Positions 1,371 through 33,015 of a stretch of DNA of 64,000 nt are shown piece after piece; position 1 is the stretch's first letter, and the number at the start of each line of letters is the position of its first letter. The notes under the pieces are model-generated. The model did not search any database, had not been told where the DNA came from, and worked only from the letters and a program-made list of their open reading frames with translations. The position numbers and the translations under genes are program-made. Source of the stretch: Candidatus Aquabacterium excrementipullorum (GTDB lineage: Bacteria > Pseudomonadota > Gammaproteobacteria > Burkholderiales > Burkholderiaceae_C). The stretch covers positions 1 to 64,000 of the forward strand of contig DXIO01000147.1 in NCBI GenBank assembly GCA_019112875.1, written 5' to 3'.

Positions 1371-1403
1371 ACCGCCGCAGACCACAAGACAGGAACGATC
1401 CCT

Positions 1404-3020: not shown

Positions 3021-3038
3021 CACGAAGGAACCAATCAA

Positions 3039-4184: not shown

Positions 4185-5077
<893 letters not shown>

Positions 5078-5080
5078 GCC

Positions 5081-6919: not shown

Positions 6920-9900
6920 ATGCCCATTCTTTCAAAGTCTCCCTCCGGCACCGTCACCGGCCTGTGGGGCTCCGCCTTCGTGAAGCTGCCGGGCGGCAAG
7001 CTCAAGCCGCTGCAGGTGGGGGACCATGTGAAACCGGGCGAGCAGATCATCACCACGCAAGATGGCATCGTTCAGATCACGAACCCCAAGGGTAAGGTGG
7101 TCGAGGCCAAGCCAGCGGCACCTGTCGCGGATGTGGACCGCGAAATCGCCGCACTGGAGCGCGGAGACGAAGCCACGGCCGCCGGCCTGACCGGCGGTGG
7201 TGAAGGGGGCTTGACGCCGGGCTTGCGCGTGGACCGTGTCAACGAGTCGGTCACGGGGCTGAACTTTGCATATGGCACCGATCGGCCCGTGCCTGATGTG
7301 CCCACGGGTGTCACCCAGCCCTTCCTCGGCGCGACACAAGCCAACAACCCGCCGGAGGTGGCCGACACGCCCACCAATCCCGGTGGCCCTGGCAGCGCCT
7401 TCGATCCGGTCACCGGCAATTACTCGGTGACCACGCCCGAAGACACACCGGTCAACGGCCAGGTCAAGGCCGTGGACCAGGACGGTGACGCGCTGACATT
7501 CACCAAGGGCAGCGATCCTCAGCACGGCACCGTCACCGTGAACGCCGATGGCACCTGGACCTACACGCCCAACCCAGACTACAACGGCAGCGACAGCTTC
7601 ACCGTGGTGGTCAGTGACGGCAAGGGCGGCAGCGACACCTCCACCGTCGACATCGGTGTCACGCCGGTGAACGACCCGCCCGTGGTGACGGACACGCCGA
7701 CCGATCCCTCGCATCCGACGACGACCTTCGATCCGGTCACGGGCAACTACGCCGTGACGACGCCCGAAGACACGCCTGTCAACGGCCAGGTCAAGGCCAC
7801 CGACAAGGACGGCGACGCGCTGACCTTCACCAAGGGCAGCGACCCGCTGCACGGCACGGTCACGGTGGGCACCGACGGCAAGTGGGTCTACACGCCCAAC
7901 CCCGACTACAACGGCAGCGACAGCTTCACCGTCGTCGTCAGCGATGGCAAGGGTGGCACGGACACCTCCACCATCAGCATCGGCGTCACCCCGGTGAACG
8001 ATCCGCCGGTGGCCGACGACGACTCGGTCACGACGCCGGAGGACCGTCCCGTCGTCATCGACGTGCTCAAGAACGACAAGGATGTCGATGCTGACAAGCT
8101 GACGGTGAGCGAGATCAATGGTCAGCCCATCGCCCCCGGTGGTTCGGTGACCTTGGCCAACAAGGGCACCATCACGCTGAACAACGACGGCACGCTCACC
8201 TTCACCCCGCTGCCCAACTACAACGGCGATGCCAGCTTTGACTACACCGTCAGGGATCCGAGTGGCGCCACCGACAAGGGCCATGTGACCCTGACAGTCG
8301 ATCCGCTGAGCGACACGCCCGTGGCTGCGGCCGACGAAGCGACCACACCGGAAGACACCCCCAAGGTGATCGACCTGCTGGCCAATGACACGGATGCCGA
8401 CGGCGACAAGCTGACCATCACGCAGATCAACGGCCAGCCCATCGGCGTGGGCGGGACCGTGGACCTGCCGGGCAAGGGCAGCGTCACGCTCAACAGCGAT
8501 GGCACGGTCACCTTCAAGCCGGTGCCCAACTACCATGGCGACGCCAGCTTCACCTACACCGTGACAGACGGCCAGACGCCGGTGACGGGCAACGTGAAGG
8601 TGACGGTCACCCCGGTCAACGACGCGCCCGTGGCGGCGCCCGACAGCGTCTCGACCGAAGAAGACACGCCGATCGAAGTGCAGGTGCGCAACAACGACAC
8701 CGACGTCGATGGCGATCCGCTGACGGTGACGGCCGTGACGCAAGGCGCGCACGGCACCGTGACGGTCAACCCGCAGACGGGCAACCCGGTGTACACGCCC
8801 AGCCTGGACTACGTGGGCACGGACAGCTTCACCTACACGATCAAGGACCCGTCCGGCCTGAGCAGCACGGCCACCGTGACGGTCACGATCGGTGGTGTCA
8901 ACGATGCGCCGGTGGCCCATGCGGACACCAACACCGTGGGCCAGAACACCAGCCTGGAGGTGAGCGCCCTCAACGGCGTGATCCAGAGCGCAGCCGCGCC
9001 CGCGGGCCGTGACACCGACCCCGATGGCGACACGCTGACCGTGTCGTCGGTGGGTTTTGGCAGCACGGCCGGCACGGTGGGCCAGGCGCTGGCGGGCCAG
9101 TACGGCACGCTGGTGCTCAAGGCCGACGGCTCCTACACCTACGTGCCCAACGCGGCCGCCAAGGCCCTGGACGATGGCGAGACCGGCCAGGACGTGTTCA
9201 GCTACACCGTCAAGGACGCGGGCGGCCTGAGCAGCACCAGCACGCTGACGGTGACCGTCACCGGCACCAACGACGCGCCCGTGGCCGTGGCCGACAATGC
9301 CACCACGCCCGAGGACACGACCGTGACCCTGCGCGTGCTGGACAACGACACCGACGTCGATGGCGATCCGCTGAGCATCACGCAGATCAACGGCCAGAAC
9401 GTGGCCGTGGGCACCCCGATCGTCCTCAAGGATGCGGGCGGCCTGGAGATCGCCAAGGTCACCGTCAAGGCCGACGGCACGGTGGAGGTGGACCCGGCGG
9501 CCAACTACAACGGCCCGGTCAACTTCAACTACACGGTCAGCGATGGCACGGCCACCAGCGTGGGCCAGGTCAACGTGCTGGTCGACAGCCGCAACGACCC
9601 GCCCGTGGCGGGCGATGACGAGGTCAGTGGCCCGGAGGACACCAAGTTCATCTTCGATCCGCGCGCCAACGACACCGACCCGGAAAACGACGCGCTGACG
9701 ATCACGCAGATCAACGGCCAGCCGATCAGCACGACGCAATCGGTCACGCTGACGCAAGGCGTGCTCAAGCTCAACGCCAATGGCAGCCTGGAGTTCTCGC
9801 CGAACCCGGACTTCAACGGCAAGCTGAGCTTCGAGTACACCATCAGCGACGGCAAGGGCGGCACGGACACCGCCACGGTGAACCTCACGGTCACCCCGGT

Positions 9901-12322
9901 GAACGATCCGCCGGTGGTGACCGACACACCGACCGATCCGTCACACCCGACGACGACCTTCGATCCGGTCACGGGCAACTACGCCGTGACGACGCCCGAA
10001 GACACGCCTGTCAACGGCCAGGTCAAGGCCACGGACAGGGATGGTGACACGCTGACGTTCGTGCAGGGCAGCGATCCGCAGCACGGCACCGTCGCGGTCA
10101 ACCCTGACGGCACCTGGACCTACACCCCTGGCCTCAACTACAACGGCAGCGACAGCTTCACCGTGGTGGTCAGCGACGGCCATGGCGGCACGGACACCTC
10201 CACCATCACCATCGGTGTCACACCGGTCAACGATGCCCCGACCGTCGTATCGGCCACATCCGGTGCCGTGTCGGAAGAAGGGCTGGCCGGTGGCTTGCCT
10301 GACAGCAACGGCTCGTCCTCCGATACCACCAATGCCACCGTGTTCAACGGCAAGATCGTTGTGGCTGATGCAGACGGCGACGCCACCAGCATCACGCTCA
10401 CAGGCCCCAGCGGCATCAAGGCCACTGGTGGCGCAGACGTGGTGTGGAGCAGCGATGGCAACGGCGGCCTGGTCGGCACGGCCGGTGGCGCCACCGTGGC
10501 CACGCTCAGCCTGGACGGATCGGGCAACTACACCTTCAGCCTCAAGGCACCGCTGCAGCATCCGGGGGCGGGCGAAGACACGCTCAACCTGAACTTCGGT
10601 GTGCAGGTGTCCGATGGCAAGGGCGGCTCCAGCAATGCTTCTTTCACCATCTCGGTGGAAGACGACGCCCCGGTGGCCCCGCCCGCGCAGACCGACTCCG
10701 TGGTCGTGCTGGACACCAACCTGCTGGTCACGCTGGACGTGTCGGGCAGCATGAACGACGTCATCCAGGTCAATGGCCAGAGCATGACCCGCCTGGCCGC
10801 CGCGGTGCAGGCCATCAACACGCTGCTGGACCGCTATGACCAGTTCGGCGATGTGGCTGTGCGCCTGGTGACGTTCTCCAGCACCACCAGCACCCTGGGC
10901 GTCGACACCTGGGTGAGCGTGGCGCAGGCCAAGTCCATGCTGGCCAGCATCACCGCCACGGGGGGCACCAACTACGACTACGGGCTCAGTGCTGCGCAGA
11001 CGGCGTTCTCGACCACCGCAGGCAAGATCGTGGGTGCCCAGAACGTGTCCTACTTCTTCTCCGATGGGAACCCGACGCTGTCCAGCACCAACCCCCGCTC
11101 GACCAGCGAGGGTGGCAACAACGACGGCTCGGCCACCAACACCAACCTCGGTGACGGCATCGACACCAACGAGGAAACCACCTGGCAGTCCTTCCTCAAC
11201 AACAACCAGATCAAGTCGTACGCCATTGGCCTGGGCAGCGGGGTCGCGGCCACCTACCTCAATCCCGTGGCCTATGACGGCCATACCTCGTCGGATCTCA
11301 ATGCGACGGTGGTGAGCAACCTGAGCCAGCTCGATTCCGTGCTGGCCGGCACGGTGCGTGAATCAGCCTCGGGCAAGCTGGTGTCGGCCGGCACGCTGGA
11401 CACCACGATGGGTGCCGATGGGTTTGCGCACATTGCCAGCGTCGTCATCAACGGCAAGACCTACTACTACGCGGATGGCCACGTCATCAGCGTCAAGACG
11501 GCCCTGGGCAACCTGCTGAACCTCGATCTGGACACGGGCGACTACACCTACACGGTGCAGACCTCGGTGGCCTCCAGCGCCAGCGAGACGTTCACATACC
11601 AGCTGGCAGACCGCGATGGCGACACGGTGCAGTCCACCCTGACGCTGAACGTGGAGCGCAGCGCCGTCGCGGTGGGCAGCAACACCGCGATCGACACGTT
11701 CAACGGCAGCGCCACGCCTGATTTCTACATCGGCCGTGGCGGCAATGACGTTCTCTCGGGCGGCGACGGCGCCGATCGTCTCTATGGCAACGATGGCAAC
11801 GACACGCTCTCGGGTGGTGGTGGCAGCGACGTGTTGCACGGCGGTGCGGGCAACGACATCCTCGATGGGGGCGCTGGCAACGATCTGCTGATCGGCGGTG
11901 CTGGCAACGACACCCTGACTGGCGGCCTGGGCAAGGACGTGTTCCAGTGGACGTTCGCGGACCCCGGCACCAGCGCGGCCACCCGTGCCACCGACACGAT
12001 CAAGGACTTCAACGTGGCCTCGGCATCGTCCGGCGGCGATGTGCTGGACCTGCGCGACCTGCTCACGGGTGAGAACACCACGGGCGGTGCCGGCAATCTG
12101 GCCAACTACCTGGACTTCGACACGTCCACCGGCAACACCGTGATCCGGATCAGCCCGACCGGCACATTCACGAACGGGGCCTACGATGCCGCGAAGGACT
12201 TCCAGCAGATCGTGCTCGAAGGCGTGAACATCCGCACCGGACTGGGACTCAGTTCCACCGCCACCGACGCCCAGATCATCACCAAGCTGATCCAGGACGG
12301 CAAGCTGCTGGTGGACGGCTGA
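6920..12322 (+). CDS. LapA-like giant adhesin with retention module, VWA domain and RTX repeats
   Basis: Secreted surface adhesin of 1800 residues. Residues 1-70 form a LapA-type retention module ([20 protein letters not shown]), which lodges in the outer-membrane secretin. A TAAG tetrapeptide at residues 86-89, followed by [13 protein letters not shown], matches the LapG protease site. Residues 115-1250 are tandem cadherin/Ig-like modules with recurring [16 protein letters not shown] and [14 protein letters not shown] motifs. Residues 1260-1460 are a von Willebrand A domain with the metal-site motif DVSGS and ATGGTNY. Glycine-rich GGxGNDxL nonapeptides (1600-1674) bind calcium, and the last 125 residues form a type I secretion signal ([21 protein letters not shown]). 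The start has AGGA 8 nt upstream. The type I exporter, LapD and LapG are not in the window. A terminator and a paralogous gene follow. Confidence 0.93.
7715..7800 (+). repeat. 86-bp intragenic direct repeat, copy 1
   Basis: This segment, coding for [20 protein letters not shown] and flanking residues of one adhesin module, is identical base for base to 9947-10032 over 86 bp. A third, diverged copy of the same module is at about 7395-7480. Such identity over 2 kb apart points to recent duplication or gene conversion within the gene. Confidence 0.9.
9947..10032 (+). repeat. 86-bp intragenic direct repeat, copy 2
   Basis: Second copy of the identical 86-bp adhesin segment (see 7715-7800). The flanks remain similar but contain synonymous differences. 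Recombination between the copies would delete 2232 bp in frame (744 codons), shortening the stalk without breaking the reading frame. Confidence 0.9.
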
Positions 12323-12351
12323 TCGGCTCGCTGAGCCAACGTTCCTGGCCG

Positions 12352-12381
12352 AAGAGCCCGCTCTGGCGGGCTCTTTCTTTT
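12352..12381 (+). terminator. Rho-independent terminator of the first adhesin gene
   Basis: A perfect 10-bp stem (AAGAGCCCGC at 12352-12361, GCGGGCTCTT at 12366-12375) with a TCTG loop is followed by TCTTTT. It lies 30 bp after the stop codon. It suggests that the second adhesin gene has its own promoter. Confidence 0.93.
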
Positions 12382-12627
12382 GCGCATCATGAAAATCGAA
12401 GACGCCACCCTTCAAATGCGGTGGATCGGATGTGAGGACGCTGGGATATCGAAGCTGGGGGCAGATACGGGAAAACCGTGCGATTGATCACGCCATGCCC
12501 GCCGCTTATCCGGATAACTTGATGATTCTTTGTGATTTAACGCACTCGGCAGCGCGGTTTTTGGCTGGTTTGGCGCAAGGGCTTGGGTTTACAGTTCTCG
12601 CAGTTGTATTAGCCCTGGAGTTGCCCC
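12382..12627. other. Intergenic region between the two adhesin genes
   Basis: Together with the terminator this is a 305-bp gap with lower GC than its surroundings, as expected for a promoter region. A partial CRP-like sequence, TGTGA-TTTAAC-GCACT at 12531-12546 (8 of 10 consensus positions), lies 82 bp before the next start codon. I could not identify a convincing -35/-10 pair. The open frame across 12432-12680 lacks a ribosome binding site and runs into the adhesin gene in another frame. Confidence 0.5.
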
Positions 12628-15600
12628 ATGCCCCTGCTCGCCAAATCCCAATCAGGCACCGTGACCGGTTTGTGGGGTGAAGCCTGGCTTCAACTCCCTG
12701 ACGGCACCCTCAAGCCCCTGAAGGTCGGGGACCATGTCGAGTGGGGTGAGCAGATCCTCACCGCCCAGGACGGCATCGTCCAGATCACCCGTCCTGATGG
12801 CGCTGTGGCCCAACTGCGCGAAGCCGTGATGGCGCCCACCAACATCGACCGCGACATCGCGGCCCTGGAGCAGGGTGACGAGGATGCGGCCACGGCGGCC
12901 GGTCTGACTGGTGGCGGGGAGGGCGGCTTGACCCCCGGCCTGCGCGTGGATCGCGTCAGCGAGAACGTGTCGCCACTGGCCTTTGCGTTCGACACGGCAC
13001 GGCAGGGGCCGGGCACGCCCGAAGGCGGCGTGCAGCAGGCGTTCCTGGCCGATGACACGCCGGCGGCCCCGCTGCCCACGCTGTCGGTGAGCAGCCCGAG
13101 CACCACCGAAGGGGGCAATGCGGTGTTCACCGTGAACGTGAGCGCGGCATCGAGCACCTCCCAGACCTACAACCTGGTGCTCAACGACGGCACCGCCACC
13201 CAGGGCCAGGACTACCGCAACGCCCTGGAAGTGTCCTTCGACAACGGCGCCACCTGGACCACGGTGAGCAATGGTCAGGTCTCGTTGTCGGCAGGACAGA
13301 CGGGCTTCCTGGTACGCGTGCCGACCATCGACGACAGCATCACGGAGCCCACCGAGACCTTCACGCTGACCGTGTCGGGTGCGAACACGGCCAATGGCAA
13401 TGCCACCGGCACCGCGTCGATCGTGGACAACGATGCCCCGCCGGTGCTGGACCTGGACGCCAACGACTCCAGCGGTGCCACCGGCAGCGGCTACGAGACC
13501 AGCTACACCGAGAAGGGCGCTGCCGTGAGCCTGGCCGACGCGGATGTCAGCATCACCGATGCCGACAGCAGCACCCTGACCGGCGCGACCATCACGCTGA
13601 TCAATGCCCAGGCCGGAGACGTGCTCAGCGTGCTGGGCGCGCTGCCTTCGGGCATCACGGCCACGGTCAATGGCGCGGTCGTGACGCTGACGGGTGAAGC
13701 CAGCCTGCAGGCCTACCAGGCGGCCTTGCGCGAAATCGGCTTCTCCAGCACCAGCAGCAATCCCTCCACGGTGGACCGCAGCGTGGAGATCACCGTCACC
13801 GATGGCGGCCACAACAGCAACACCGCGGTGACGACCATCCACGTGGCCGGTGTCAACGACGCACCAGTGGTGGAGTCGACCACGTCCGGCTCGGTCTCGG
13901 AGGCGGCGCTGCCCGGTGGCGTGACCGACCCCAACGCACCGACCCCTGAATCCGCCGTGTTCCAGGGCAAGGTCGTCGTGGTCGACGCGGACGGCGACGC
14001 CACCACCGTCACGCTGAGCGGCCCCTCCGGCATCCACGCCGCCGATGGCACCGAAGTCGTCTGGGCCAGCGATGGCCATGGCGGGCTCGTCGGCACCGCC
14101 GGCACCACCACGGTCGCGACCCTGGCCATCGATGCTTCGGGCAGCTACACCTTCACCTTGCTGGCGCCGCTGCAGCACAGCGCCCAGGGCGAGGATTCGC
14201 TGACCCTCAACTTCGGCGTGAGCGCCAGCGATGGCCACGGCGGTGTGGGTTCCGGTGCTTTCACCATCACGGTGCAGGACGACACGCCCAGCACCATCGT
14301 TCCCGTGACCGACACGGTCCAGGTCCTGGACACCAACGTGCTGATCGTGCTGGACGTTTCCGGCTCGATGAACAACAGCAGCGGCATCGGCACCCTGAGC
14401 AGCCTGCAAGCCGCCATCCAGTCCGTCAATGCGCTGCTGGACCAGTACGACCAGTTCGGCAACGTGGCCGTGCGCCTGGTCACGTTCTCCGACAAAGCCT
14501 ATGAACAGGGCACCAGCTGGGTGAGCATCACGGAAGCCAAGGCGCTGCTGGCCAACATCTCCGCGCTGGGCAGCACCAACTATGACGATGCCCTGAGCGC
14601 GGCGCAGGATGCATTCACCAGCGTGGGCAAGATCGATGGCGCGCAGAACGTCGCCTATTTCATCTCCGATGGCGACCCCACGCTGTCCAACACCAACCCC
14701 ACCAGCACCGCCTATGGCGGCAACAACGATGGCAGCGCCACCAACCCGGAGCTGGGCGACGGCATCGACGCGGGAGAGGCGCTCGCCTGGCAGGCTTTCC
14801 TCGATGCGAACCACATCACCTCGTATGTGATCGGCCTGGGCACCAGCGTCAACCAGAGCAACCTCGACCCTATCGCGTACGACGGCCAGTCGTCGTCCGA
14901 CCTGGATGCCACGGTGGTGACCGACCTCGGCCAGCTGGGTTCGGTGCTGGCGGGCACGGTGAAGCAGACCACATCCGGCTCCCTGGCGGCTGGACAGCTT
15001 CTCGGAGCGGATGGCTTCGGACACATCGTCAGCATCATCGTCAATGGCGTGGAGTACACCTACCATGCCGATGCCCCGGTCGTGCACATCACCACCGCGC
15101 TGGGCCAGTTGCTGACCCTCGATTTCAACACGGGCGAGTACACCTATACCATCCAGGCGCCGGTGAGCAGCAGCACGACCGAGACCTTCAGCTTCACCCT
15201 GGTCGACCAGGACGGTGACCTGGCCAAGTCCAGCCTCACCATCGATGTGAACCGCACGGTGGTGGGTGAAGGCACGGCCTCGGACGACACCCTGCTGGGC
15301 CACACCGGCGATGCCAACGTCATCCTCGGCCACGAGGGCAACGACACCATCGTCGGCGGCACCGTGGCCGACCAGCTCTTCGGCAACGATGGCAACGACC
15401 GCCTGCAAGGCCTGGCCGGTGACGACCTGCTGCATGGCGGGGCGGGCAACGACACCCTGGTGGGCGGCGCCGGCAACGACACGCTGTATGGGGGCACGGG
15501 CTCCGATGTCTTCCAGTGGAGCCTGGGCGATGCGGGCGCAGACGCCGCGCACCGCGCCGTGGACACGATCAAGGATTTCGATGTCAAGGCGCCAGCGGCC

Positions 15601-15894
15601 GGTGGCGACGTGCTCGACCTGCGTGACGTGCTGGTCGGCGAGAACACCGCGGGCGGTGTCGGCAACCTGGCCAACTACCTGGACTTCGACACCAGCGGCG
15701 GCAACACGGTCATCCGCATCAGCACCACGGGTGGCTTCGCGGGCGGTACGTATGCGGCGTCGGCCGACAACCAGCAGATCGTGCTGGAAGGGGTGAACCT
15801 GCGCAGCGGCCTGGGCCTGACCGCCGATGCCACCGATGCCCAGATCATCGGCAAGCTGATCGAGAACGGCAAGCTGCTGGTCGACAACAGCTGA
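12628..15894 (+). CDS. Second LapA-like adhesin with Calx-beta, VWA and RTX domains
   Basis: Paralogue of the preceding adhesin, 1088 residues. The retention module ([23 protein letters not shown]) and the TAAG LapG-type site (residues 89-92, then [18 protein letters not shown]) are nearly the same as in the first protein. The stalk is different and short: a Calx-beta module at about 150-268 (NDGTATQGQDY, ITEPTETFTLTVSG) and one or two cadherin-like modules. The von Willebrand A domain at about 565-775 ([33 protein letters not shown]), the GGAGNDTL nonapeptides (885-960) and the type I secretion end (DVFQW, DTIKDFDV) again match the first gene. GGAG 8 nt upstream supports ATG 12628. Probable role: calcium-dependent surface attachment, released by a LapG-type protease. 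Confidence 0.92.
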   Translation: MPLLAKSQSGTVTGLWGEAWLQLPDGTLKPLKVGDHVEWGEQILTAQDGIVQITRPDGAVAQLREAVMAPTNIDRDIAALEQGDEDAATAAGLTGGGEGGLTPGLRVDRVSENVSPLAFAFDTARQGPGTPEGGVQQAFLADDTPAAPLPTLSVSSPSTTEGGNAVFTVNVSAASSTSQTYNLVLNDGTATQGQDYRNALEVSFDNGATWTTVSNGQVSLSAGQTGFLVRVPTIDDSITEPTETFTLTVSGANTANGNATGTASIVDNDAPPVLDLDANDSSGATGSGYETSYTEKGAAVSLADADVSITDADSSTLTGATITLINAQAGDVLSVLGALPSGITATVNGAVVTLTGEASLQAYQAALREIGFSSTSSNPSTVDRSVEITVTDGGHNSNTAVTTIHVAGVNDAPVVESTTSGSVSEAALPGGVTDPNAPTPESAVFQGKVVVVDADGDATTVTLSGPSGIHAADGTEVVWASDGHGGLVGTAGTTTVATLAIDASGSYTFTLLAPLQHSAQGEDSLTLNFGVSASDGHGGVGSGAFTITVQDDTPSTIVPVTDTVQVLDTNVLIVLDVSGSMNNSSGIGTLSSLQAAIQSVNALLDQYDQFGNVAVRLVTFSDKAYEQGTSWVSITEAKALLANISALGSTNYDDALSAAQDAFTSVGKIDGAQNVAYFISDGDPTLSNTNPTSTAYGGNNDGSATNPELGDGIDAGEALAWQAFLDANHITSYVIGLGTSVNQSNLDPIAYDGQSSSDLDATVVTDLGQLGSVLAGTVKQTTSGSLAAGQLLGADGFGHIVSIIVNGVEYTYHADAPVVHITTALGQLLTLDFNTGEYTYTIQAPVSSSTTETFSFTLVDQDGDLAKSSLTIDVNRTVVGEGTASDDTLLGHTGDANVILGHEGNDTIVGGTVADQLFGNDGNDRLQGLAGDDLLHGGAGNDTLVGGAGNDTLYGGTGSDVFQWSLGDAGADAAHRAVDTIKDFDVKAPAAGGDVLDLRDVLVGENTAGGVGNLANYLDFDTSGGNTVIRISTTGGFAGGTYAASADNQQIVLEGVNLRSGLGLTADATDAQIIGKLIENGKLLVDNS

Positions 15895-22148: not shown

Positions 22149-23195
22149 TCAGGCGGCCGTGGTCACTGGTGTGCAGGCCTGGCGCAGCACGTCGAGGTAG
22201 CCCGGCTCGGCGGGCAGGGCGTGCTTGTCGCGCAGCATGCGGTGCATGAGCGGCAGCCGGTAGTAGGGCACCGAAGCCATCACGTGGTGCTCCAGGTGGT
22301 AGTTCACGTGCACAGGGGCCACGGTGATGCGGGCCAGCCAGCCGGCGCGCGTGGTGCGTGTGTTGAGGAACATGTCCGGCGTGCGCGCCAGGCAGCCATG
22401 CTCGGCGATGGAGCGGATGCGGATGAACAGCGGCAGTGGCGTGATGTAGGCCAGTGCCCAGACGCCATACAGCCAGGCGTGGCCCGTGAGCGCCAGGATG
22501 CCCCAGAGCACCGCGTTGGCCAGCAGCATGGGCGCCATGTTGCGCAGCGCGCTGCCCACGTAGTGGTACCAGCGCCGGCCGTTTCGCGGCAGCCACTGGA
22601 TGTCGTTGGACACCGTCCACTTGAGCACGCCGGCGTCCATCAGGATCAGGCCGTAAATCGTCTTCAGGCCCGTGAGGCCGGTGATGTCGCGCAGGAACTT
22701 GCGCGCCATGGAGCGGCGTGTGACGGGGTAGTCGACGTGCAGCAGCAGGTCCGGATCCGCCTCGGTGCCGGTCTTGGTGTGATGGACGAAATGGTGGGCG
22801 CGGTACTTGTGCAGGTGCTGCCATACGGGACGGGCGCACAGCCAGTCCACGATCACATCGTTCATCCAGCGCGTCTTGAACAGGGTGCCGTGCGAGCCTT
22901 CATGCTGCAGGATGGCCAGGCACAGCTGACGCCCCGCGATCACGGCCAGCGCGCCGATGAAGGTGAAGGCATTGGGCCAGCGCGCCAGCACGGCGAAGGT
23001 GGCCGCGATGACACCCCAGGTGGAGAGGATGGCCCAGGCGCCTCGCCAGTCGGAGCGTGCCGTGAGCTGGGCGATCTGCTCGCGGGTGAACAGCTCGTTG
23101 ACCTTGCGCCGCGTGGTGGCCGGCAGCACCGTGGGGGTGGCGCTTTCGGGAGCTGGGGCGGTCTTGTCGAAGGCGGTGGCGGGGCTGGCGGTCAT
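22149..23195 (-). CDS. Fatty acid desaturase family protein
   Basis: Integral-membrane di-iron desaturase or hydroxylase of 348 residues. The three histidine boxes are present in the usual order: HEGSH near residue 118, HFVHH near 155, and HVNYHLEHH near 295. Hydrophobic segments lie before box 1 and between boxes 2 and 3. It introduces a double bond or hydroxyl into a lipid chain; the substrate is not evident. It starts 34 nt downstream of the PaaX-like regulator and is probably in the same transcript. GAGG lies about 8 nt before ATG 23195. Confidence 0.9.
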   Translation of the reverse strand: MTASPATAFDKTAPAPESATPTVLPATTRRKVNELFTREQIAQLTARSDWRGAWAILSTWGVIAATFAVLARWPNAFTFIGALAVIAGRQLCLAILQHEGSHGTLFKTRWMNDVIVDWLCARPVWQHLHKYRAHHFVHHTKTGTEADPDLLLHVDYPVTRRSMARKFLRDITGLTGLKTIYGLILMDAGVLKWTVSNDIQWLPRNGRRWYHYVGSALRNMAPMLLANAVLWGILALTGHAWLYGVWALAYITPLPLFIRIRSIAEHGCLARTPDMFLNTRTTRAGWLARITVAPVHVNYHLEHHVMASVPYYRLPLMHRMLRDKHALPAEPGYLDVLRQACTPVTTAA

Positions 23196-23229
23196 GGTGG
23201 CGCCTCAGGAGAGGCGTTGGCGTTGGGAA

Positions 23230-24120
23230 TCAGTGGGGACGCTCGCCGGGCGGTGAGGTGGCGGCATCGTCGGTCAGGCTGGTGTTGGCGCGGCCGCCGG
23301 TCAGCAGATGGGCCAGCAGCTTCTGCCAGATCACATGGCCGGCGCGGTCGTAAGCCTGCACGGCCTCGTTGAAGGCGCGGCGCTCTGCCACGTCGACCAG
23401 AGGCTCGGGCAGGAGCGGGTCGAACACCAGTTGGCGGATGGCTTCGTTGCCCAGCAGGTAGCACTCGCGGGCGGCCACGTCGGTGTCAAGCTGATCGGCG
23501 TGGGCCATCCAGCGCTGCAGCTTCTGGCGCGTGGCCTGGTAGCTGGCCGTGAGGGCGGGGCCATCCCACAGGTGGCGGGCGGCCTGCTCGCGGCCCTTGT
23601 CCAGATCATGGGCGGAGAAGACGGGGGCGCTGGAATCCAGGCCCAACTTGTACAGGCGCTCGCGCACCACGGGGGCGTGGCCCACCAGGTTGTCGGGACG
23701 CAGGTAGAGCGTGGGCTCAAGCTCGCGGAAGCCCGCCATGGTCAGTGCGCGTTCACGGGCGCGCAGGGCGGGGCGGTCGCTGCGGCCCAGGGCGCCGGTG
23801 CTGACGACGAGCCAGCGGCCATCCCACTCGCAGGCGCGCTGTTCGAGCGTGCGCCAGCGAGAGACATCATCGGCGAGCGGCGCGGCCTGAGGACCCAGGC
23901 GGTAACTGCCACGGCCAGCGGCCTCCACCAGCCCGGCGGCGGCCAGGCGCACCAGGGCCACTCGCACGCTGTTCTCGCGGATACCGAAGAGGGCGCAGGC
24001 GCCGACCGCCTCACGCGAGGTGAGCGGGCCATCGGCGGCCATCAACAGGTTGAGGATGAGGTGCTTCGGGTTCGGAGCCATGGCGGTGTCGAGGTCTGAG
24101 GGGATGTTAGGGAATGACAT
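23230..24120 (-). CDS. PaaX-like transcriptional regulator
   Basis: Regulator of the PaaX family (phenylacetyl-CoA-responsive repressors and relatives), 296 residues. The N-terminal winged helix reads KHLILNLLMAADGPLTSREAV...GIRENSVRVALVRLAAAGLVEAAGRGSYRLG, and the C-terminal domain contains CEWDGRWLVVSTGALG and LYLRPDNLVGH, as in PaaX. A start at ATG 24081 (MAPNPKHLIL) is also plausible, because TTGACA and TAACAT spaced 18 bp apart overlap the upstream start codon and no ribosome binding site favours 24120. No phenylacetate genes are present; the only apparent target is the desaturase gene downstream, so the ligand may be a different acyl-CoA. Confidence 0.85.
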   Translation of the reverse strand: MSFPNIPSDLDTAMAPNPKHLILNLLMAADGPLTSREAVGACALFGIRENSVRVALVRLAAAGLVEAAGRGSYRLGPQAAPLADDVSRWRTLEQRACEWDGRWLVVSTGALGRSDRPALRARERALTMAGFRELEPTLYLRPDNLVGHAPVVRERLYKLGLDSSAPVFSAHDLDKGREQAARHLWDGPALTASYQATRQKLQRWMAHADQLDTDVAARECYLLGNEAIRQLVFDPLLPEPLVDVAERRAFNEAVQAYDRAGHVIWQKLLAHLLTGGRANTSLTDDAATSPPGERPH

Positions 24121-24396: not shown

Positions 24397-27300
24397 TCAG
24401 GCCGCCAGCACGACCACGTCCTGCCCTGCGGTGACGCCACTGCCTTCCTTGCAGCGCACGCTGAGCACCGTGCCCTTGGCGGGCGCCGTCACGGGGAACT
24501 CCATCTTCATCGACTCGACGATGGCCAGGGTCTGGCCTTCATCGACGGTATCGCCCTTGGCCACCAACACTTTCCACACGCTGCCGGGCACGGGGCTGCC
24601 GACGGCGGTGGCGCCTTCGGGCAGGGCGCTGTCATCGGGCGGTGGGGACAGGTCCAGTTCGCTCAGGCTGCCATCCTGACCCGAGGCCTTCCAGCGCTCG
24701 CGCTCGGCATCGAAGGCGGCCTGCTGGCCTTGCTTGAAGGCGCCGATGCTGTCGGCTTCACGCTGCAGGAACTGGCGGTAGTCGCGCAGGCTGAAGGTGC
24801 CGTGCTCGATGCGCAGCTTCAAGCGCCCTGCGGGGAAGTCGCGGCGCATCTGCAGCAGCTCTTCTTCGCTGGCGGGGTAGAAGCGGATCTGGTCGAAGAA
24901 GCGCAGCAGCCAGGGCTTGCCGGCTTCGAAGTCGGCCGCGCCATGGCGCTCGTCGCGCCAGCGGTTCCACATTTGCACGGTGCGGCCGACGAACTGGTAG
25001 CCGCCGGGGCCTTCCATGCCGTACACGCACAGGTAGGCGCCACCGATGCCCACGGCGTTCTCGGGCGTCCAGGTGCGGGCGGGGTTGTACTTGGTGGTGA
25101 CCAGGCGGTGGCGCGGGTCCAGCGGGGTGGCCACGGGGGCGCCGAGGTAGACATCGCCCAGGCCCATCACCAGGTAGCTGGCATCGAAGAGGATGCGTTT
25201 CACATCCTCGATGCTGCCCAGGCCATTGATGCGGCGGATGAACTCGATGTTGCTGGGGCACCAAGGTGCGTCGGCGCGCACGGACTGCATGTACTTCTCG
25301 ATGGCCAGGCGCGTGGCGCTGTCGTCCCAGGACAGGGGCAGCCACACGGTGCGGGTGGGCACGGTGAGGTCGTCCAGCGAAGGCATCGCGGCTTCGGCCT
25401 GGTCGATCGCTTGCAGCAGATGGGGGCGGGGCAGGGTGGCCGGATCGAAATGGATCTGCAGCGAGCGGATGCCTGGGGTCATGTCGACGATGCCGTCGAG
25501 CTGGCCTTGCTGGCGTTGCGTATCCAGTGCTGTCATCAGTGCGTGCACATGGAAGCGCAGCGTGAGGTCGAGCACCAGGGGGCCGAATTCGATCAGCAGG
25601 TAGCGGTCGCCAGCCTGGCGGATGCAGCGTGCCGGGAGGGCGGTGGTGTCGTCGGCCAGGCGCTGGCTTAGGATGGGGGAGAGACTGGCGGTGACTTCGG
25701 GCGCGGGGATGCCCGCGGGCAGTGGGACGGACGCAGTGAGATTCGAACTCACGGACTTGGCCGAAGCCACGAGTTCATCCTGGGCCTGCTGCAGCGCTTG
25801 CGCCTGCTCATGCGTCAACGCAATGAAGCGCAGCGTATCCCCCGCCTTGAGCTGCCCCAGCTTCCAGCGCTCGGCCGCCACCACCACGGCCGGGCACACG
25901 AAGCCGCCCAGGCTGGGGCCGTCCGGGCCCAGGATCACGGGCATGTCGCCGGTGAAGTCGATCGCGCCGATGGCGTAGGCGTTGTCGTGGATGTTGGAAG
26001 GGTGCAGGCCGGCCTCGCCGCCGTCGGTGCGAGCCCATTGTGGCTTCGGGCCGATCAGGCGCACGCCGGTGCGGCTGCTGTTGTAGTGCACCTGATAGTC
26101 CGTGCCGAAGAAGGTGGTGATGTCTTCGGATGTGAAGAAGTCTGGCGCGCCGTGTGGGCCGTAGAGCACGCCGATGGTCCAGTGCCTGGTGAAGGGGCTG
26201 GTGGCTTCTTGGGTGGCCGAGGTTTCTCGCGGCGCGATGCCTTGCGGCGGTTCGTCAGGCGCTGAGAACGCATGCAGCATGTCCCCCGTGCGCAGCGTGC
26301 GGCCGGCGTGACCACCGAACTGCCCCAGCGTGAAGGTGCTGCGGCTGCCCAGGTAGGTGGGCACGTCCAGGCCGCCCTGCACGGCCAGGTAGGTGCGCGC
26401 ACCGCCTTCGCTCAGCGGCACGGGGCCGAGCTTGAGCGTGCTGCCCGCAGGCAGGCGCAGCGCGCGGTTGAAGGCTTGCGCGAAAGGCAGGGGCTTGCCG
26501 TCGAGCGTGATGGCCATCGGCGCACCACACAGCGCGATGACCAGTTCGCTGTGCAGCTTCAGGGTGGGGCCGGCCACCGTGCATTCCAGGCCTGCGACGC
26601 CGGCCGCGTTGCCCACCAGCGTGTTGGCCAGGCGCAGGTGCAGGTCGTCCATGGGGCCGGAGGGCGGCACGCCCACGTCCCAGTGGCCAGTGCGGCCGGG
26701 CCAGTCCTGCACGGTGGTCTGCACGCCGCCGTCCAGCACCTCCAGCGCGCGCGGGTGCCACGCGAAGCTGCCCAGCGTGCTGGTGACGATGCGGCCTTGC
26801 GCGAACACGTCGGAACCGCTCACGGCACGCAGGTAGCGCAGGTTGGTTTCGATGCCGGCCAGACGTGTGGCGTCCAGGGCCTCTTGCAGCTTGAGCACGG
26901 CTTGTTCACGCGTGTCGGCCGTGACGATCAGCTTGGCGATCATCGGGTCGTAATAGGGCGGCACGTCGCTGCCGGTGTCCACCCAGCCATCGACGCGCAC
27001 GCCTTCGGGGAAGGCCACGTCGGTGAGTACGCCGGCGCTGGGTTGGAAGTTGCGGGCCGGGTCTTCGGCGTACAGGCGCACCTGGATGGAGGCGCCCTTG
27101 GGGACGGGGGCGTGAAGCGCCCATTGGTCGCCGCGTGCCAGGCGCACCATCCACTCGACCAGGTCCACGCCGGTCACCTGCTCGGTCACGCCGTGCTCGA
27201 CCTGCAGGCGCGTGTTGACCTCCAGGAAGTAGAAGGCGCCCGTGTCGGCGTCGAGCACGTATTCCACGGTGCCGGCGGAGCGGTAGTTCACGGCCTGGCC

Positions 27301-28119
27301 CAGGCGTTTGGCGGTGGCCAGCAGTTCGGCGCGCGTCTCTGCGTTGAGGTGCGGCGCGGGCGTCTCCTCGATCACCTTCTGGTTGCGGCGCTGGGCCGAG
27401 CAGTCGCGCTCACCCAGGGCGACGACAGTGCCGTGTCCATCGCCGAACAGCTGCACCTCGATGTGGCGCGCGCGCTCGACGAACTTCTCCAGGAACAGGC
27501 CGGCGTCCTTGAAGTTGGCGCGGGCCAGGCGCTCCACCGCTTCATAGGCCGCGTCCAGCTCGGCCTCGTTGCGCACCAGGCGCATGCCGATGCCGCCACC
27601 GCCGGCCGTGCTCTTGAGCATCACGGGGTAGCCGATGCGCTGGGCTTCTGCTCTCGCGTGAGCCGCGTCTTCCAGCAGCCCGCTTCCGGGCAGCAGCGGT
27701 ACCTGGTGCTGCTCGGCCAGCGCGCGCGCCGTGTGCTTCAGGCCAAAGGCCCGCATCTGATCGGGCGTGGGGCCGATGAAGGCGATGCCGGCGTCCTCGC
27801 AGGCCTGGGCGAAGGCGGGGTTCTCCGACAGGAAGCCGTAGCCAGGGTGGATGGCGCCGGCGCCGGTCTGGCGCGCGGCGGCCAGGATGCGCTCGACATC
27901 GAGGTAGCTTTGCGCGGCGGGCGCGGGGCCGATGCAGATGCTGGCATCGGCCAGGGCCACGTGGCGCGCATCCGCGTCAGCCTCGGAGTAGACGGCCACG
28001 GCCTTCAGCCCCATCTTGCGCAGCGTGCGGATGATGCGGCAGGCGATGGCGCCACGGTTGGCGATGAGGACGGTGTCGAAGCGGAGGGCAGTCGTGTTTG
28101 GGGTGGCGGACGTGCTCAT
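24397..28119 (-). CDS. Guanidine carboxylase (urea carboxylase family), biotin-dependent
   Basis: Biotin-dependent enzyme of 1240 residues with the urea-carboxylase layout. Residues 12-460 are biotin carboxylase ([28 protein letters not shown] for [19 protein letters not shown]). Residues 470-1110 are the carboxyltransferase with AHS2/KipA-like ([20 protein letters not shown]) followed by AHS1/KipI-like parts. The last 80 residues are the biotinyl domain, with the biotinylated lysine in [10 protein letters not shown]. Family members carboxylate urea or guanidine. Here the guanidine-I riboswitch, the two DUF1989 genes and the NitT/TauT-type transporter argue for guanidine as the substrate, giving carboxyguanidine. 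The gene is last in the operon, 148 nt after the DUF1989 gene. The fused or adjacent allophanate hydrolase often seen is absent. Confidence 0.93.
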
Positions 28120-28267
28120 GGGACGAGGGGCGCTTTCGTCGGCGTGGCGCAGGTCGTCCTGCGGTCATCGGGCTTCGCAGCGGGTCGTCCCGCCGGGGCT
28201 GTGTGGTGTCAGCCTGGGTGTCAACCTGGGTATGAGCGTGCCGGTGGGTGGCGCAAAAAAGCTCGTC

Positions 28268-28957
28268 TCACGCGGCATCCCACAGCAGGAAGCGTGCGGG
28301 CGTGGGGTTGTAGGCGTTGCAGGGGTTGTTGAGCTGCGGACAGTTGGACACCAACATCAGGATGTCCATCTCGGCGCGCAACTCCACGTACTTGCCCGGG
28401 CCGGAGACGCCATCGGCGAAAGTGAGCTGGCCGTCTTCGGTCACCGGCACGTTCATGAAGAAGTTGACGTTGGGCACCAGGTCGCGTTTGCTTAAGGCCA
28501 GATCGGCGTGCTGCAGGGCTACAAGATAGTTGTCGCGGCAGCTGTGCATGAACTTCTTCTGGAGGGCGTAGCGCACGGTGTTGCTCTCGGCCGCGCAGGC
28601 ACCGCCCAGCGTGTCGTGGCGACCGCAGGTGTCGGCCACGATGGTCAGCATCGGCCGGCCTTCGCTGCTGGTCAGCACCGAACCCGTGGTCAGGTAGATG
28701 CCGCCCTGGGCGAGCATGGTGTCGGTGGCGCTGTAGTGCTCGGCCGGGTCGTTCGCGTTGTAGAAGATCACGTCGACGGCCTGGTTGCCTTCGACATCGA
28801 CGATGCGCAGGGTCTGGCCCTTGTCGAAGCGCAGCAGGTAGGGCTCGCCGGAGGGCAGGAAGTGGTCGAGCACGGCCTTGCTGGTGTCCAGTGGGCTTTC
28901 CTGGATGCGGATGGCGCTGGCGGAAGGCTGCAAGCCTGGATCGGTCATGGCGTTCAT
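28268..28957 (-). CDS. DUF1989 protein, carboxyguanidine deiminase subunit (UAAP2-like)
   Basis: A 229-residue protein of the urea-carboxylase-associated DUF1989 family. In characterised guanidine pathways, two such proteins form CgdAB, which deiminates carboxyguanidine to allophanate. Visible family features are [19 protein letters not shown], the metal- or substrate-site segment [18 protein letters not shown] with its Cys and His residues, and [15 protein letters not shown]. The start at 28957 has AAGGA 9 nt upstream; the open frame continues upstream but overlaps the previous gene. It follows the other DUF1989 gene by 16 nt. Whether it is CgdA or CgdB I cannot say from sequence; the UAAP2 label rests on its shorter length. 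Confidence 0.9.
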
Positions 28958-28973
28958 GGCGCGTGTCCTTGGG

Positions 28974-29783
28974 TCAGAGGTACTGCATGTCGGCGTTGTG
29001 GAGGGCGCGCGCGCACTCGGGGCGGAAGGCGCGGTTGAAGTCGTCCTTGGGCGCGGGGCCTGATTTCCAGGCGACCAGGCCGATCTTCCTGGGCGCATAC
29101 GTGGGCGCTGGGTCCAGTGGGTGCGGCGCGGTGGAGAACGCGATCAGCGTGTCCATGTCGAAGCGCAGCTCGACCATGCCGCCGGCCGGCGTGTGCCCGG
29201 GTGCGAACTGGAATCGGCCTTCGGCATCCACCGACACCTTGCTGAAGAAGTTCACCGGTGCGATCAGGTCGCGGCGCGCCAGGCCGTATTTGCCGATCTC
29301 GATCAGCAGGCCATCCTTGCCGCTGCGGTGCATGGCGTTGCGGTGAGTGTGGAAGGTCTTCGCATCGCTGGCGTACTTGGTGCGCAGGCGCTCGGCATCG
29401 AGCAGCGCGCCCAGCGGGTCGTGCCAGCCGACGGTGTCTTCGGTGATGCTGGCCAGCGAACGGCCCATGTCGCTCATCAGGGTATGGCCGCGCGTGAAGT
29501 GGGCCGTGTGCTGTGCCTTGAGCGAATCGGGCATGTTGTAGCGCTCGAGCTTCTCTCGCGCGTGGTAGAGCACCATGCTCAGATTGGCGCCGGCTTCCAG
29601 CGCGACCATGCGCAGGCGGCTGCCACGCGGCATCACGTAGGACCAATGGCCGCCGCCGGGCACGATCTCGGACCACATGACGCGGTCTTCGGGCAGTTCG
29701 GGCGCGAAGCGTTTCCAGTGCGCGATCGCATCCACGGGGCTGGTGACGGGCGGGTTGCCGGGGATCTCGGTGAAATGTTCCAT
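28974..29783 (-). CDS. DUF1989 protein, carboxyguanidine deiminase subunit (UAAP1-like)
   Basis: A 269-residue paralogue of the following gene and the probable second subunit of carboxyguanidine deiminase. Family features are [20 protein letters not shown] near residue 42, the [20 protein letters not shown] segment, and [22 protein letters not shown] 29783 is taken as the start because the resemblance begins there (the upstream GTG at 29816 overlaps the ATPase gene). It sits 29 nt after the ATPase gene and 16 nt before the second DUF1989 gene, so it is well inside the operon. Confidence 0.9.
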
Positions 29784-29812
29784 CGTGGTTCTTTCTTGGA
29801 TGCGTGCCAGAC

Positions 29813-30670
29813 TCACTCGATGGCACCGGTGGCCACGCCTTCTACAGAGCGGTTGAGCTTGTCCAGCAGGTCCAGGTCGGTCTTCATGCCGGAGGTGTCG
29901 CGGATGCGGTCGAGCAACTGGCGCTTGAGCTGCAGGAACTCGGGCGAGAGCTTCATGTCGCGATGACGTTCGGCCGGCAGCGGCACGTTGACGATGCTGT
30001 CGATGCGGCCGGGGCGTGGCGCCATCAGCACCACGCGGTCGCCCAGGTAAATGGCCTCGTCCACGTCGTGCGTGACGAAGACGATGGTGGTGCGCTCCAG
30101 CTTGTGCACGTGCTTGATCAGGTCGTGCATCACTTCGCGGGTCTGCGCATCGAGCGCACCGAAGGGCTCGTCCATCAGCAGGATGGGCGGGCGGCTCATC
30201 AGCGCGCGGGCAATCGCCACGCGCTGCTGCATGCCGCCGGAGAGCGCCGCCGGGTAGGCCTTGGCCACGTGCGTGAGGCCCATCAAACGCAGGAGCGCAT
30301 CGGCGCGGCCGGCGGCGTCTTCCACGTCGGCGCTGGTGCGGTCTTGCGTGTGGGCCTTGAGCTGGCGGCAGAACTTGATGTTGTCCAGCACCGTGAGCCA
30401 GGGGTAGAGGCTGTAGTGCTGGAACACCATCGCGCGGTCAGGCCCTGGCGCGGCGACGGCGTGGCCGGCCACGCTCACGCTGCCCTGGTTGTGGCTCTCC
30501 AGCCCGGCGATGGTGCGCAGCAGCGTGGATTTGCCGCATCCCGAGGCCCCCACGAAGGTGACGAATTCGTTCGGCCCGATGTTGAGCGACACGTCGCGCA
30601 GCGCGGGCGCGGTGGCGCCGGGGTAGGTCTTCCACACGTGCTCGCAGGTGATGCCGAGGGCTTTTGTCAT
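29813..30670 (-). CDS. ABC transporter ATP-binding protein, guanidine operon (NitT/TauT type)
   Basis: ATPase subunit of a nitrate/sulfonate/taurine-type importer, 285 residues. Walker A is GASGCGKST, the Q-loop is [11 protein letters not shown], the signature is [16 protein letters not shown], and Walker B is [12 protein letters not shown] with the H-loop in VTHDVDEA. The gene is 20 nt downstream of the permease gene. Operons with a guanidine riboswitch often carry exactly this transporter next to the DUF1989 genes and the carboxylase, so guanidine is the likely cargo, though direct evidence is absent. Confidence 0.93.
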
Positions 30671-30690
30671 GGCGTGCTCCTCAATGCGTC

Positions 30691-31575
30691 TCAGCGCGTG
30701 TGCATGTACGGGAAGGCCTTGCGGTGCGCCAGACGGAAGAGCTGGTCGATCACCAGCCCGATCAGGCCGATGATCAAAATGCCCGCGAAGATCTTGTCGG
30801 TCTGCAGAAAGCGCTGCGCTTTCAAGATGGAATAGCCCAGGCCCGAGTTGGCGGCCACCAGTTCGGCCACGACCAGGTAGGTCCAGGCGCAGCCCATGTT
30901 CACGCGCAAGGTGTCCAGCAGCGCGGGCTTGGCCGAGGGCAGGATCACCTTCTCAACGATCTCCCAGCGCGTGGCGCCCATGGTCTGCGCCGCCTCGATC
31001 TGCGCCATGGGCACGCGGCGTGTGTCCTCCGCCACCATCAGCACCATCGGGAAGAACGTACCGATGAAGATGATGGCGACCTTGGCGCCCTCGTCGATGC
31101 CCACCCACACCATCACGAGCGGCACGAAGGCCACCGCAGGCATGTAGCGGATGAAGTCCATCATCGGCTCCAGCAGCGCCTGCACCACGCGCCATGAGCC
31201 GATCAAGAGGCCCAGCGGCAGCGCGAGCAGCGAGGCCAGTGCCCAGCCGACCACCACGCGCATCGTGCTGATGCCGATGTCGCCCAGCAGGCCGTCGGCC
31301 CACCACACCTGCACACGCTCAATCACCTTGGCCGGTCCGGGCAGGAAGACGGGCTCGACCCGGCCGCTGGCCACCGCGAGCATCCACAGCACCAGAGGCG
31401 CGAGCAGGCCCACGATGGCCAGGCCCCAGTACATGCTGGCGGGGATGCCCTGGCGCAGTGCGAACAGTGGAGCCGGCGCTGCCTGAGGCGGCGCGACTTC
31501 AGCGTGATGTGGCGGCGCCTCGCTGAGGGCTTTGGCCGCCAGTGGCAGCGCAATGGAGGGCGGTGATTTGGACAT
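30691..31575 (-). CDS. ABC transporter permease, guanidine operon
   Basis: Inner-membrane permease of the NitT/TauT type, 294 residues with about six membrane segments. The N-terminal 45 residues are a Pro/Ala-rich cytoplasmic tail. The conserved EAA loop appears as EAAQTMGATRWEIVEKVILPSAKPALL near residue 195, which is where the ATPase docks. Features typical of the family are FLPGPAKVIERV and DFIRYMPAVAFVPLVMVWVG. The gene lies 122 nt downstream of the binding-protein gene and 20 nt upstream of the ATPase gene. Confidence 0.93.
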   Translation of the reverse strand: MSKSPPSIALPLAAKALSEAPPHHAEVAPPQAAPAPLFALRQGIPASMYWGLAIVGLLAPLVLWMLAVASGRVEPVFLPGPAKVIERVQVWWADGLLGDIGISTMRVVVGWALASLLALPLGLLIGSWRVVQALLEPMMDFIRYMPAVAFVPLVMVWVGIDEGAKVAIIFIGTFFPMVLMVAEDTRRVPMAQIEAAQTMGATRWEIVEKVILPSAKPALLDTLRVNMGCAWTYLVVAELVAANSGLGYSILKAQRFLQTDKIFAGILIIGLIGLVIDQLFRLAHRKAFPYMHTR

Positions 31576-31697
31576 GGTCAGGCTCCTGTCTCAGAGCGGC
31601 ACGGGGTGCGAGAGCGGGCGTGCCTGGTTTGGCCTGCCTCGGCGCCGCGCCTCGGTGAGGACGGCGGAACCGGCAGGTCAGCCCAGGCCGCGAGGTC

Positions 31698-32801
31698 TTA
31701 CTTCAGCGCCTCGGCCAACAGCGATGCATCGACACCCTTGGCCGCATCGGGCTTGCCGTCGATCAGCTTGTGCTCCAGCAGGAAGCTGGAGATGGTCGGG
31801 GCCACGCCCACGAGGGATTGCGGGCCCTTGCCGTCCAGCGCGGCCTTGTTGGCCGCGGCATCGAAGAACTTGGTCCCCGGCAGGAACACCTTGTATTCAT
31901 CGGGCTTGAGGCTCACGACCTTGCTCATGATCTGCGCGGCTTCGTCGGGTTTGTCGGCGATGAATTTCACCGTGTCGAACCAGGCCTTGATCATGCCGAC
32001 CAGGTCGCGGCGCTTGGCCTTGATGGCCTTGTCCTGCGCCACCAGCAGGTCGGGGATCAGGCCGGGCATGTCCTTGGAGGTGAACAGCGATTTGCCCTTG
32101 CCGCTCTGCTCGATGGTGTGGATCCACGGGTTCCAGACCACGGCGGCGTCCACGCGGCCAGCCATGAAGGCGGCGGCGGCATCACCGGCCGACAGGTTGA
32201 CGATCTTCACGTCGGAGGGCTTCATGCCGTTCTTGGCCAGGGCCGTGGCCAGCACGAAGTGCGACACGCTGAACTCTTCGAGCGCCACGCTCTTGCCCTT
32301 CAGGTCCTTGATGGACTTGATCTTCGGCGAGGCCACCACGGCGTCGTTGCCGGCGGAGTTGTCGTTGACCAGGATGGTCTTGAGTGGCAGGCCCTTGGCC
32401 AGCGGGCCCATGGTGTCGGACCAGGTCTGCGAGTTCGCATCGAGCTGGCCGGAAGACAGCGCGGCGATGGAATCGGTGTAGTTGGCGAACCAGACGAGCT
32501 TGACGTCTGCGCCGTGCTTCTTGAAGAAGCCCTTTTGCTCTGCGACGTACCAGGCCACCCAGCCGGGCCAGTCGGACACGCCCACCTTCACCTCGGCCGA
32601 TGCAGGCAAGGGTGCTGCGAGCGCCATGGCGGCGGCGACCGCGGCCATGGCGCCGAGCACTTTGCCTTTCAATGCCTTCCATGAAGAAAGCACCGAGGGC
32701 CTTGCAAGTGGTGGCAGTGCTTGTGCTGCTGTTGTGTGCTGGGCTGAAATGGCGGCTTGAGTGCGGCTCGGCACGGGACGGAATTCTTCAACACGGCGCA
32801 T
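31698..32801 (-). CDS. ABC transporter substrate-binding protein, guanidine operon
   Basis: Periplasmic receptor of the NitT/TauT type, 367 residues. The mature part starts near AEVKVGVSDWPGWVAWYVAEQ and includes GKSVALEEFSVSHFVLATAL and VDAAVVWNPWIHTIE, typical of this receptor group. The start at ATG 32801 has an AGGAG about 8 nt upstream, giving a long N-terminal region of about 68 residues before cleavage at PASA-E; the hydrophobic core of the signal peptide is at residues 45-65. This is the first gene after the guanidine-I riboswitch, so its ribosome binding site is the likely target of riboswitch control. Confidence 0.92.
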   Translation of the reverse strand: MRRVEEFRPVPSRTQAAISAQHTTAAQALPPLARPSVLSSWKALKGKVLGAMAAVAAAMALAAPLPASAEVKVGVSDWPGWVAWYVAEQKGFFKKHGADVKLVWFANYTDSIAALSSGQLDANSQTWSDTMGPLAKGLPLKTILVNDNSAGNDAVVASPKIKSIKDLKGKSVALEEFSVSHFVLATALAKNGMKPSDVKIVNLSAGDAAAAFMAGRVDAAVVWNPWIHTIEQSGKGKSLFTSKDMPGLIPDLLVAQDKAIKAKRRDLVGMIKAWFDTVKFIADKPDEAAQIMSKVVSLKPDEYKVFLPGTKFFDAAANKAALDGKGPQSLVGVAPTISSFLLEHKLIDGKPDAAKGVDASLLAEALK

Positions 32802-32852
32802 GTAGGGGCTCCTGGCTGGGTGGACGCGCGAGAGGACACTTCTGTCGAAGCG

Positions 32853-32967
32853 AACCTCCCGGGCTTTTGTCCCGCCGTGGAGCCTGCGTCGGTAAATGGC
32901 CGACCCGGGCCGGCAGCTCTCGGACCAGACACTTCAACCTTGCGGATGAAGCCGGAACCCTAGCCAC
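32853..32967 (-). ncRNA. Guanidine-I riboswitch (ykkC class)
   Basis: On the minus strand the leader carries all the conserved blocks of the guanidine-I aptamer in order and with normal spacing: CTAGGGTTCCGG (32963-32952), TCTGGTCCGAGAG (32929-32917), and GGGACAAAAGCCCGGGAGG (32873-32855) preceded by CACGGC. The aptamer binds guanidinium and turns on guanidine transport and breakdown genes. About 50 nt separate it from the start codon of the binding-protein gene, and I see no T-tract terminator, so control of translation is more likely than control of termination. Confidence 0.96.
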
Positions 32968-33015
32968 CATTTCGAAGAAACGACTGCGACATCGTTCCTC
33001 TCAGGGCAAGATGTA

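Follow-up and report, generated by a model that had tools for sequence, protein, structure and literature searches.

What does a six-gene operon do when it ends with an enzyme of the urea-carboxylase type and begins behind an RNA switch for guanidine? The question is raised by contig DXIO01000147.1 of Candidatus Aquabacterium excrementipullorum (assembly GCA_019112875.1), of which we analysed positions 1 to 64,000, hereafter the window. An earlier reading made from the letters of the DNA (the sequence-only reading) had placed the operon at 24397-32967, which is correct to a few bases, and had described six genes on one strand, the last encoding a urea-carboxylase-type enzyme and two of the others DUF1989 proteins, all of which are present as claimed. 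The cluster is almost certainly a pathway that uses guanidine as a nitrogen source, not a urea enzyme system, and it stands under two classes of guanidine-sensing RNA switch. Judged from sequence, it is very probably a guanidine-inducible guanidine-assimilation operon gated by a guanidine-I and a guanidine-II switch. The sequence-only reading was right in its main points, but it missed the internal guanidine-II switch and the location of allophanate hydrolase outside the operon.

An Rfam scan of the whole window returned two matches over gathering scores, one for each of these switch classes and both on the minus strand, as are all operon features below. The sequence-only reading had placed a guanidine-I aptamer at 32853-32967 and proposed a covariance-model search of the leader; that search returns RF00442 at 32854-32974, scoring 82.9 bits (gathering score 63). 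The match is full length (1-107, E 2.8e-13) and the only one for RF00442 at E <= 0.001 in the 4.75-Mb genome. Its CCGAGAG motif is as in the Rfam consensus and its gene context is of the guanidine type. According to the portions of PMC6031431 consulted, an adenosine, A46 of the crystal structure, separates guanidine aptamers from variants for guanosine tetraphosphate (ppGpp) and phosphoribosyl pyrophosphate (PRPP). The second aptamer, guanidine-II, lies at 28149-28196 in the 148-nucleotide (nt) gap between cgdB and the carboxylase gene, and comprises hairpins at 28177-28196 and 28149-28162 whose loops both read ACGA, the loop type that defines the class. It matches RF01068 with E 0.0027 in the window and 4.8e-5 genome-wide, where it is the sole match at E <= 0.001.

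Six genes in one direction follow the leader. The next start codon, 52 nt past the guanidine-I aptamer, is that of a substrate-binding protein (SBP) of the NMT1/SsuA type for an ATP-binding cassette (ABC) transporter (31698-32801, start codon at 32801; PF09084 and TIGR01728 over cut-off, TIGR03427 below), followed by the transporter permease (30691-31575; PF00528) and a NitT/TauT-type ATPase (29813-30670; PF00005, with ntrCD as the best NCBIfam match, below its cut-off). Two DUF1989 proteins (PF09347) then adjoin the carboxylase. One is of the UAAP1 type (28974-29816; TIGR03425, 323.2 bits, cut-off 205.95) and the other, cgdB, of the UAAP2 type (28268-28957; TIGR03424, 334.3 bits, cut-off 284.7), its start set at the ATG at 28957. 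Their family membership and position make them likely subunits of a carboxyguanidine deiminase, CgdAB. The biotin-dependent carboxylase (24397-28119, 1240 residues) closes the operon.

In the scheme we propose, guanidine would enter through the NitT/TauT-type transporter, whose SBP likely binds it. The biotin carboxylase would spend ATP to yield carboxyguanidine, CgdAB would convert this to allophanate, and an allophanate hydrolase whose gene lies at another site of the genome would release ammonia and CO2. One ligand would thereby act on two gates, with the leader guanidine-I switch governing the operon and the internal guanidine-II switch governing the carboxylase; binding of guanidine by both aptamers, co-transcription of the six genes and flux along the whole route would be expected under this scheme.

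The substrate of the carboxylase can be approached through two residues. In the portions consulted, PMC11410670 reports that a guanidine carboxylase requires Asp at the position of residue 1584 of the Kluyveromyces lactis enzyme and that Asp at 1330 separates guanidine from urea carboxylases, and PMC12186494 assigns aspartate to guanidine carboxylases and asparagine to urea carboxylases at this latter, deciding site. The K. lactis urea amidolyase (PDB 5i8i, 3va7) is homologous to the window carboxylase over residues 13-1238 and shares its carboxylase domains, Asp1584 and Lys1605. It differs in Asn1330 and in a fused allophanate hydrolase, where the window carboxylase has Asp721 (opposite Asn1330 in an alignment with 3va7, numbered via 5i8i) and no fused hydrolase. 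Asp989 was assigned to position 1584 by motif spacing, the aligned region stopping before 1584; it lies 21 residues before Lys1010, the spacing of Asp1584 before the active-site Lys1605. Asp at both published positions supports the earlier claim that the carboxylase acts on guanidine, and the claim that the label urea carboxylase misleads also holds, the NCBIfam names here being urea carboxylase and urea amidolyase associated proteins. The automatic annotation is corrected by this result, and guanidine use as a nitrogen source is predicted for the organism.

The same residue sorts the relatives. We kept the best 80 of 591, and excluded from the residue table 26 that match over the biotin-carboxylase part only (L057-L082); the remaining 54 named loci (L003-L056) and the window give 55 sequences that cover the deciding site, 48 with Asp and seven with Asn. 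Relatives of CgdA and CgdB occur in the fetched locus of 44 of the 48 Asp sequences; the four exceptions (L018, L042, L044, L051) all have a carboxylase match that begins at most 563 nt from a contig end. CgdAB and riboswitches are both absent from six of the seven Asn sequences. A separate sample of the family comprised 299 genomes, 32 of which carry a TIGR02712 match over cut-off; besides the window, their 31 loci were fetched (L101-L131, overlapping the named set by at least one record, L022 being L131). Thirty of the 32 combine Asp with CgdAB; L101 and L102, the remaining two, have Asn and lack both CgdAB and a local switch.

These counts bear on whether the operon might after all be a true urea carboxylase operon, one that makes allophanate from urea and is correctly annotated. 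The TIGR02712 urea carboxylase model is matched over its full length (1858.3 bits, cut-off 1303.85), and PMC12186494, in the portions consulted, reports that guanidine carboxylases do take urea, though less well. We nevertheless consider a urea carboxylase operon very improbable. Despite the TIGR02712 score the deciding site holds Asp and not the Asn of a urea carboxylase, the CgdAB neighbours would be superfluous on a urea route, two guanidine aptamers lie in the operon, and of the carboxylases that do have Asn, six of seven in the named loci and two of two in the family sample go without CgdAB and a local switch. The genome also encodes a urease alpha subunit (926.9 bits, over cut-off), and UrtA, UrtB, UrtC and UrtE lie in the window at 8-5785 on the plus strand, each over its NCBIfam cut-off (the position of UrtD falls outside the scan); urea therefore has a route of its own. 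No second carboxylase of the TIGR02712 kind was found in the genome, where the other matches span the biotin-carboxylase part only. Given the Asp site, the neighbouring genes and the separate urea genes, we set urea aside as the substrate. The guanidine-II match could likewise be doubted as a chance pair of hairpins, which would leave the leader switch to work alone. Its 35.0 bits stand against a gathering score of 32, no Shine-Dalgarno-like site was found before the carboxylase ATG, this ATG lies 29 nt past the second hairpin, farther than in 21 of 25 other loci (11-24 nt in these, 41-46 nt in the other four), and the element is missing from two of four genomes sampled in the genus. A coincidence of this kind is scarcely credible, however, for the only match in 4.75 Mb, located in the very gap where it is expected. 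Of the 54 named loci, 25 also have a match near the carboxylase when E is allowed up to 0.15, and 18 of these keep it at E <= 0.0031. In 24 aligned rows, fitted to the structure of the model, 93.5% of cells are paired and 10 of 13 pairs are changed on both sides, with 64 double-change cells as against 19.9 in shuffles.

For the comparison with relatives, the guanidine-II model was built from the window and eight of the 54 named loci; the Rfam model with strict filters gave fewer guanidine-II elements. A guanidine-I leader precedes the operon in 25 of the 30 guanidine-carboxylase genomes of the family, window included. In L116 it would lie across the contig origin if the contig is circular, in L123 guanidine-I occurs only downstream of the carboxylase, and three genomes have none. 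Of the 30, 24 have guanidine-II at the cgdB-carboxylase junction, two of them as weak matches (E 0.0032 and 0.014), and both switches occur with the same gene order in 20 (21 counting L116). Measured from match ends in the 29 fetched loci with CgdB, guanidine-II is found in all 23 junctions of at least 76 nt and in none of the six of at most 40 nt. Within the genus of the window, the element occurs in the window and L104 and is absent from L108 and L113. Guanidine-I accompanies it in 20 of the 25 named loci with a match near the carboxylase. In the named set, a gap of -8445 for L004 is an artefact of a wrong match, and L016 has a further weak guanidine-II match far from the carboxylase. The layout of two switch classes has been published for three enterobacteria; in this family it is common, and other proteobacterial loci have it too.

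Some loci place their switches differently. In two Hyphomicrobium loci guanidine-II precedes cgdA instead of the carboxylase (L025 6516-6563, L028 6533-6579). Four family loci (L117, L118, L119, L120) carry a second guanidine-I, and hence a third switch, downstream of the carboxylase and allophanate hydrolase and just before a co-directional SBP gene; a comparable second guanidine-I aptamer occurs in L049.

For the mode of action we prefer a translational mechanism for both switches, less surely so for guanidine-I. The guanidine-II class is described as translational in the portions of PMC12186494 and PMC7544219 consulted. A predicted fold of the window hides the AUG region of the carboxylase by pairing it with the first guanidine-II hairpin, and this pairing is not conserved in relatives. 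An anti-aptamer model, in which UCGUCCC before the carboxylase AUG pairs with GGGACGA of the first hairpin, was rejected as a general mechanism: CGUCC recurs in the stretch before the AUG in just one of the 25 other loci, L039, and the duplex length is within chance in the window (p 0.22) and in L039 (p 0.70).

The guanidine-I leader offers a more specific clue. The likely ribosome-binding site of the SBP gene, GGAGCC at 32807-32812 (11 nt before the ATG, first G to A), is the exact complement of GGCUCC at 32879-32884 within the aptamer, a strand used in the aptamer's own consensus helices. Their predicted pairing probability is 0.80, as against 0.14 with the leader shuffled, although two of 20 shuffles reach an equally high value. 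We asked how general this is in 70 guanidine-I leaders, a set that omits L131 as the duplicate of L022; ten from Firmicutes and cyanobacteria were excluded at the outset, and ten had no GGAG site found by our rule, by which, and not by annotation, ribosome sites were located. In 25 of the 50 proteobacterial leaders that remain, CC follows GGAG; elsewhere in these loci 36 of 374 GGAG sites have it (Fisher p 7e-11, a significance that the relatedness of the leaders inflates), and none of the ten leaders excluded at the outset has GGAGCC. On average the site is predicted to pair with the aptamer strand at a probability of 0.53, which falls to 0.12 once the leader is shuffled and GGAG kept in place. 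Across the leaders, site and aptamer match only modestly more often than with permuted sites: 29 full matches, where permutation gives a mean of 24.9 (p 0.01). The over-represented match of ribosome site and aptamer strand suggests translational control in proteobacterial guanidine-I leaders, and the modelled pairing in the window's own leader favours it, though it is unproven.

A tentative proposal, which we regard as possible rather than probable, goes further. Proteobacterial guanidine-I leaders may control translation with no separate expression platform, GGCUCC serving as the anti-Shine-Dalgarno strand of GGAGCC and releasing it when guanidine binds. If so, two gates would lie ahead of the carboxylase, both translational and both answering to guanidine but built from different classes of RNA, and the second gate would be an optional insert at one gene junction, gained or lost even within a genus. 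Two features of the survey count against translational control: predicted pairing falls below 0.5 in 20 of the 50 leaders, and the mean still stands at 0.42 when just the two bases that follow GGAG are exchanged. There is about an even chance that the leader switches transcription in the ordinary way, by an intrinsic or a Rho-dependent mechanism, and that the match of ribosome site and aptamer is incidental. The class is usually transcriptional (PMC12186494, in the portions consulted), a stable hairpin lies just past the window aptamer and overlaps its 3' end, and a T-run of at least four occurs 15-45 nt past the aptamer in 18 of the 50 leaders, including those of the near relatives L003, L039, L125 and L128; the last fits transcriptional control and lowers the odds of a translational mechanism. 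Against this stand the excess of CC after GGAG and the predicted pairing; a simple scan of the window leader also detects no terminator-like site, and the longest T-run between aptamer and ATG is 2. We found no description of a ribosome site that pairs with the guanidine-I aptamer in the literature searched, which covered few subscription papers. The match offers a simple test for translational action of guanidine-I switches.

Completion of the pathway depends on a gene that the operon does not carry. The allophanate hydrolase needed after CgdAB is encoded in two pieces: an N-terminal part is truncated by the end of contig C100 (L083 1501-2643; 521.7 bits, cut-off 511.05) and a C-terminal part opens contig C31 (L084 8-568). 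We infer that the two are one gene. A biuret amidohydrolase-like gene adjoins the C100 piece (255.1 bits, short of the 370 cut-off), and the hydrolase may be shared between the guanidine and biuret pathways.

Several observations weigh against the reading as a guanidine-assimilation operon under two switches. The hydrolase lies outside it, both of its pieces sit at contig ends, and genome-wide scans place no guanidine-I or guanidine-II switch near them. The guanidine-II match exceeds its gathering score by only 3 bits, and a simple sigma-70 scan detects no promoter-like site ahead of the operon. The transporter models nearest to urea or taurine transport (NCBIfam) score below their cut-offs; guanidine import by the NitT/TauT-type transporter, as the sequence-only reading had it, is what we too would predict. 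One carboxylase breaks the residue rule: in L025, which is a Hyphomicrobium bin, Asn occupies the deciding site despite CgdAB and switches, and the enzyme is either an exception to the Asp/Asn rule or one of altered substrate. And the evidence for the operon is computed from sequence. In L025, guanidine-I and a weak guanidine-II match lie in the same locus as the carboxylase (8001-11591).

Other genes of the window stand apart. Downstream of the carboxylase, a PaaX-like regulator (23230-24120) lies beside a gene for a protein of the fatty-acid-desaturase fold (22149-23195), both on the minus strand. The pair (22149-24120) was considered for membership of the operon and rejected, with no tblastn match (E 1e-8) in L003-L056 or L101-L131. 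The desaturase-fold protein weakly matches the model for GntB, the guanitoxin arginine hydroxylase (85.6 bits, cut-off 380), and its gene is probably unrelated to the operon. On the plus strand, 6920-15894 encodes a pair of very large repeat proteins (1800 and 1088 residues) whose N-termini resemble each other and which both contain tandem repeats; the first matches tandem-95 repeat, BapA/LapF-type adhesin and VCBS models.

The tandem-riboswitch review PMC9481103 lists, in the portions consulted, no tandem arrangement that involves any guanidine class; we take its "tandem" to mean adjoining aptamers, not two within one operon. In Pseudomonas syringae DC3000, likened here by description (PMC11410670), an ABC transporter, a guanidine carboxylase and a two-subunit carboxyguanidine deiminase under guanidine-I control are shared with the window; the window operon also has a guanidine-II switch, of which the consulted portions of that paper make no mention. 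Within the literature searched, limited as above, we found the dual layout only in PMC12186494, whose consulted portions describe it together with the pathway for three enterobacteria. As here, the genes for importer and carboxyguanidine deiminase stand behind guanidine-I, and the carboxylase behind a guanidine-II switch immediately downstream. In those enterobacteria the allophanate hydrolase gene follows the carboxylase, whereas the genome of the window, from a different host lineage, has it elsewhere. The operon is thus of a kind already known, and differs from it by an allophanate hydrolase gene sited elsewhere in the genome.

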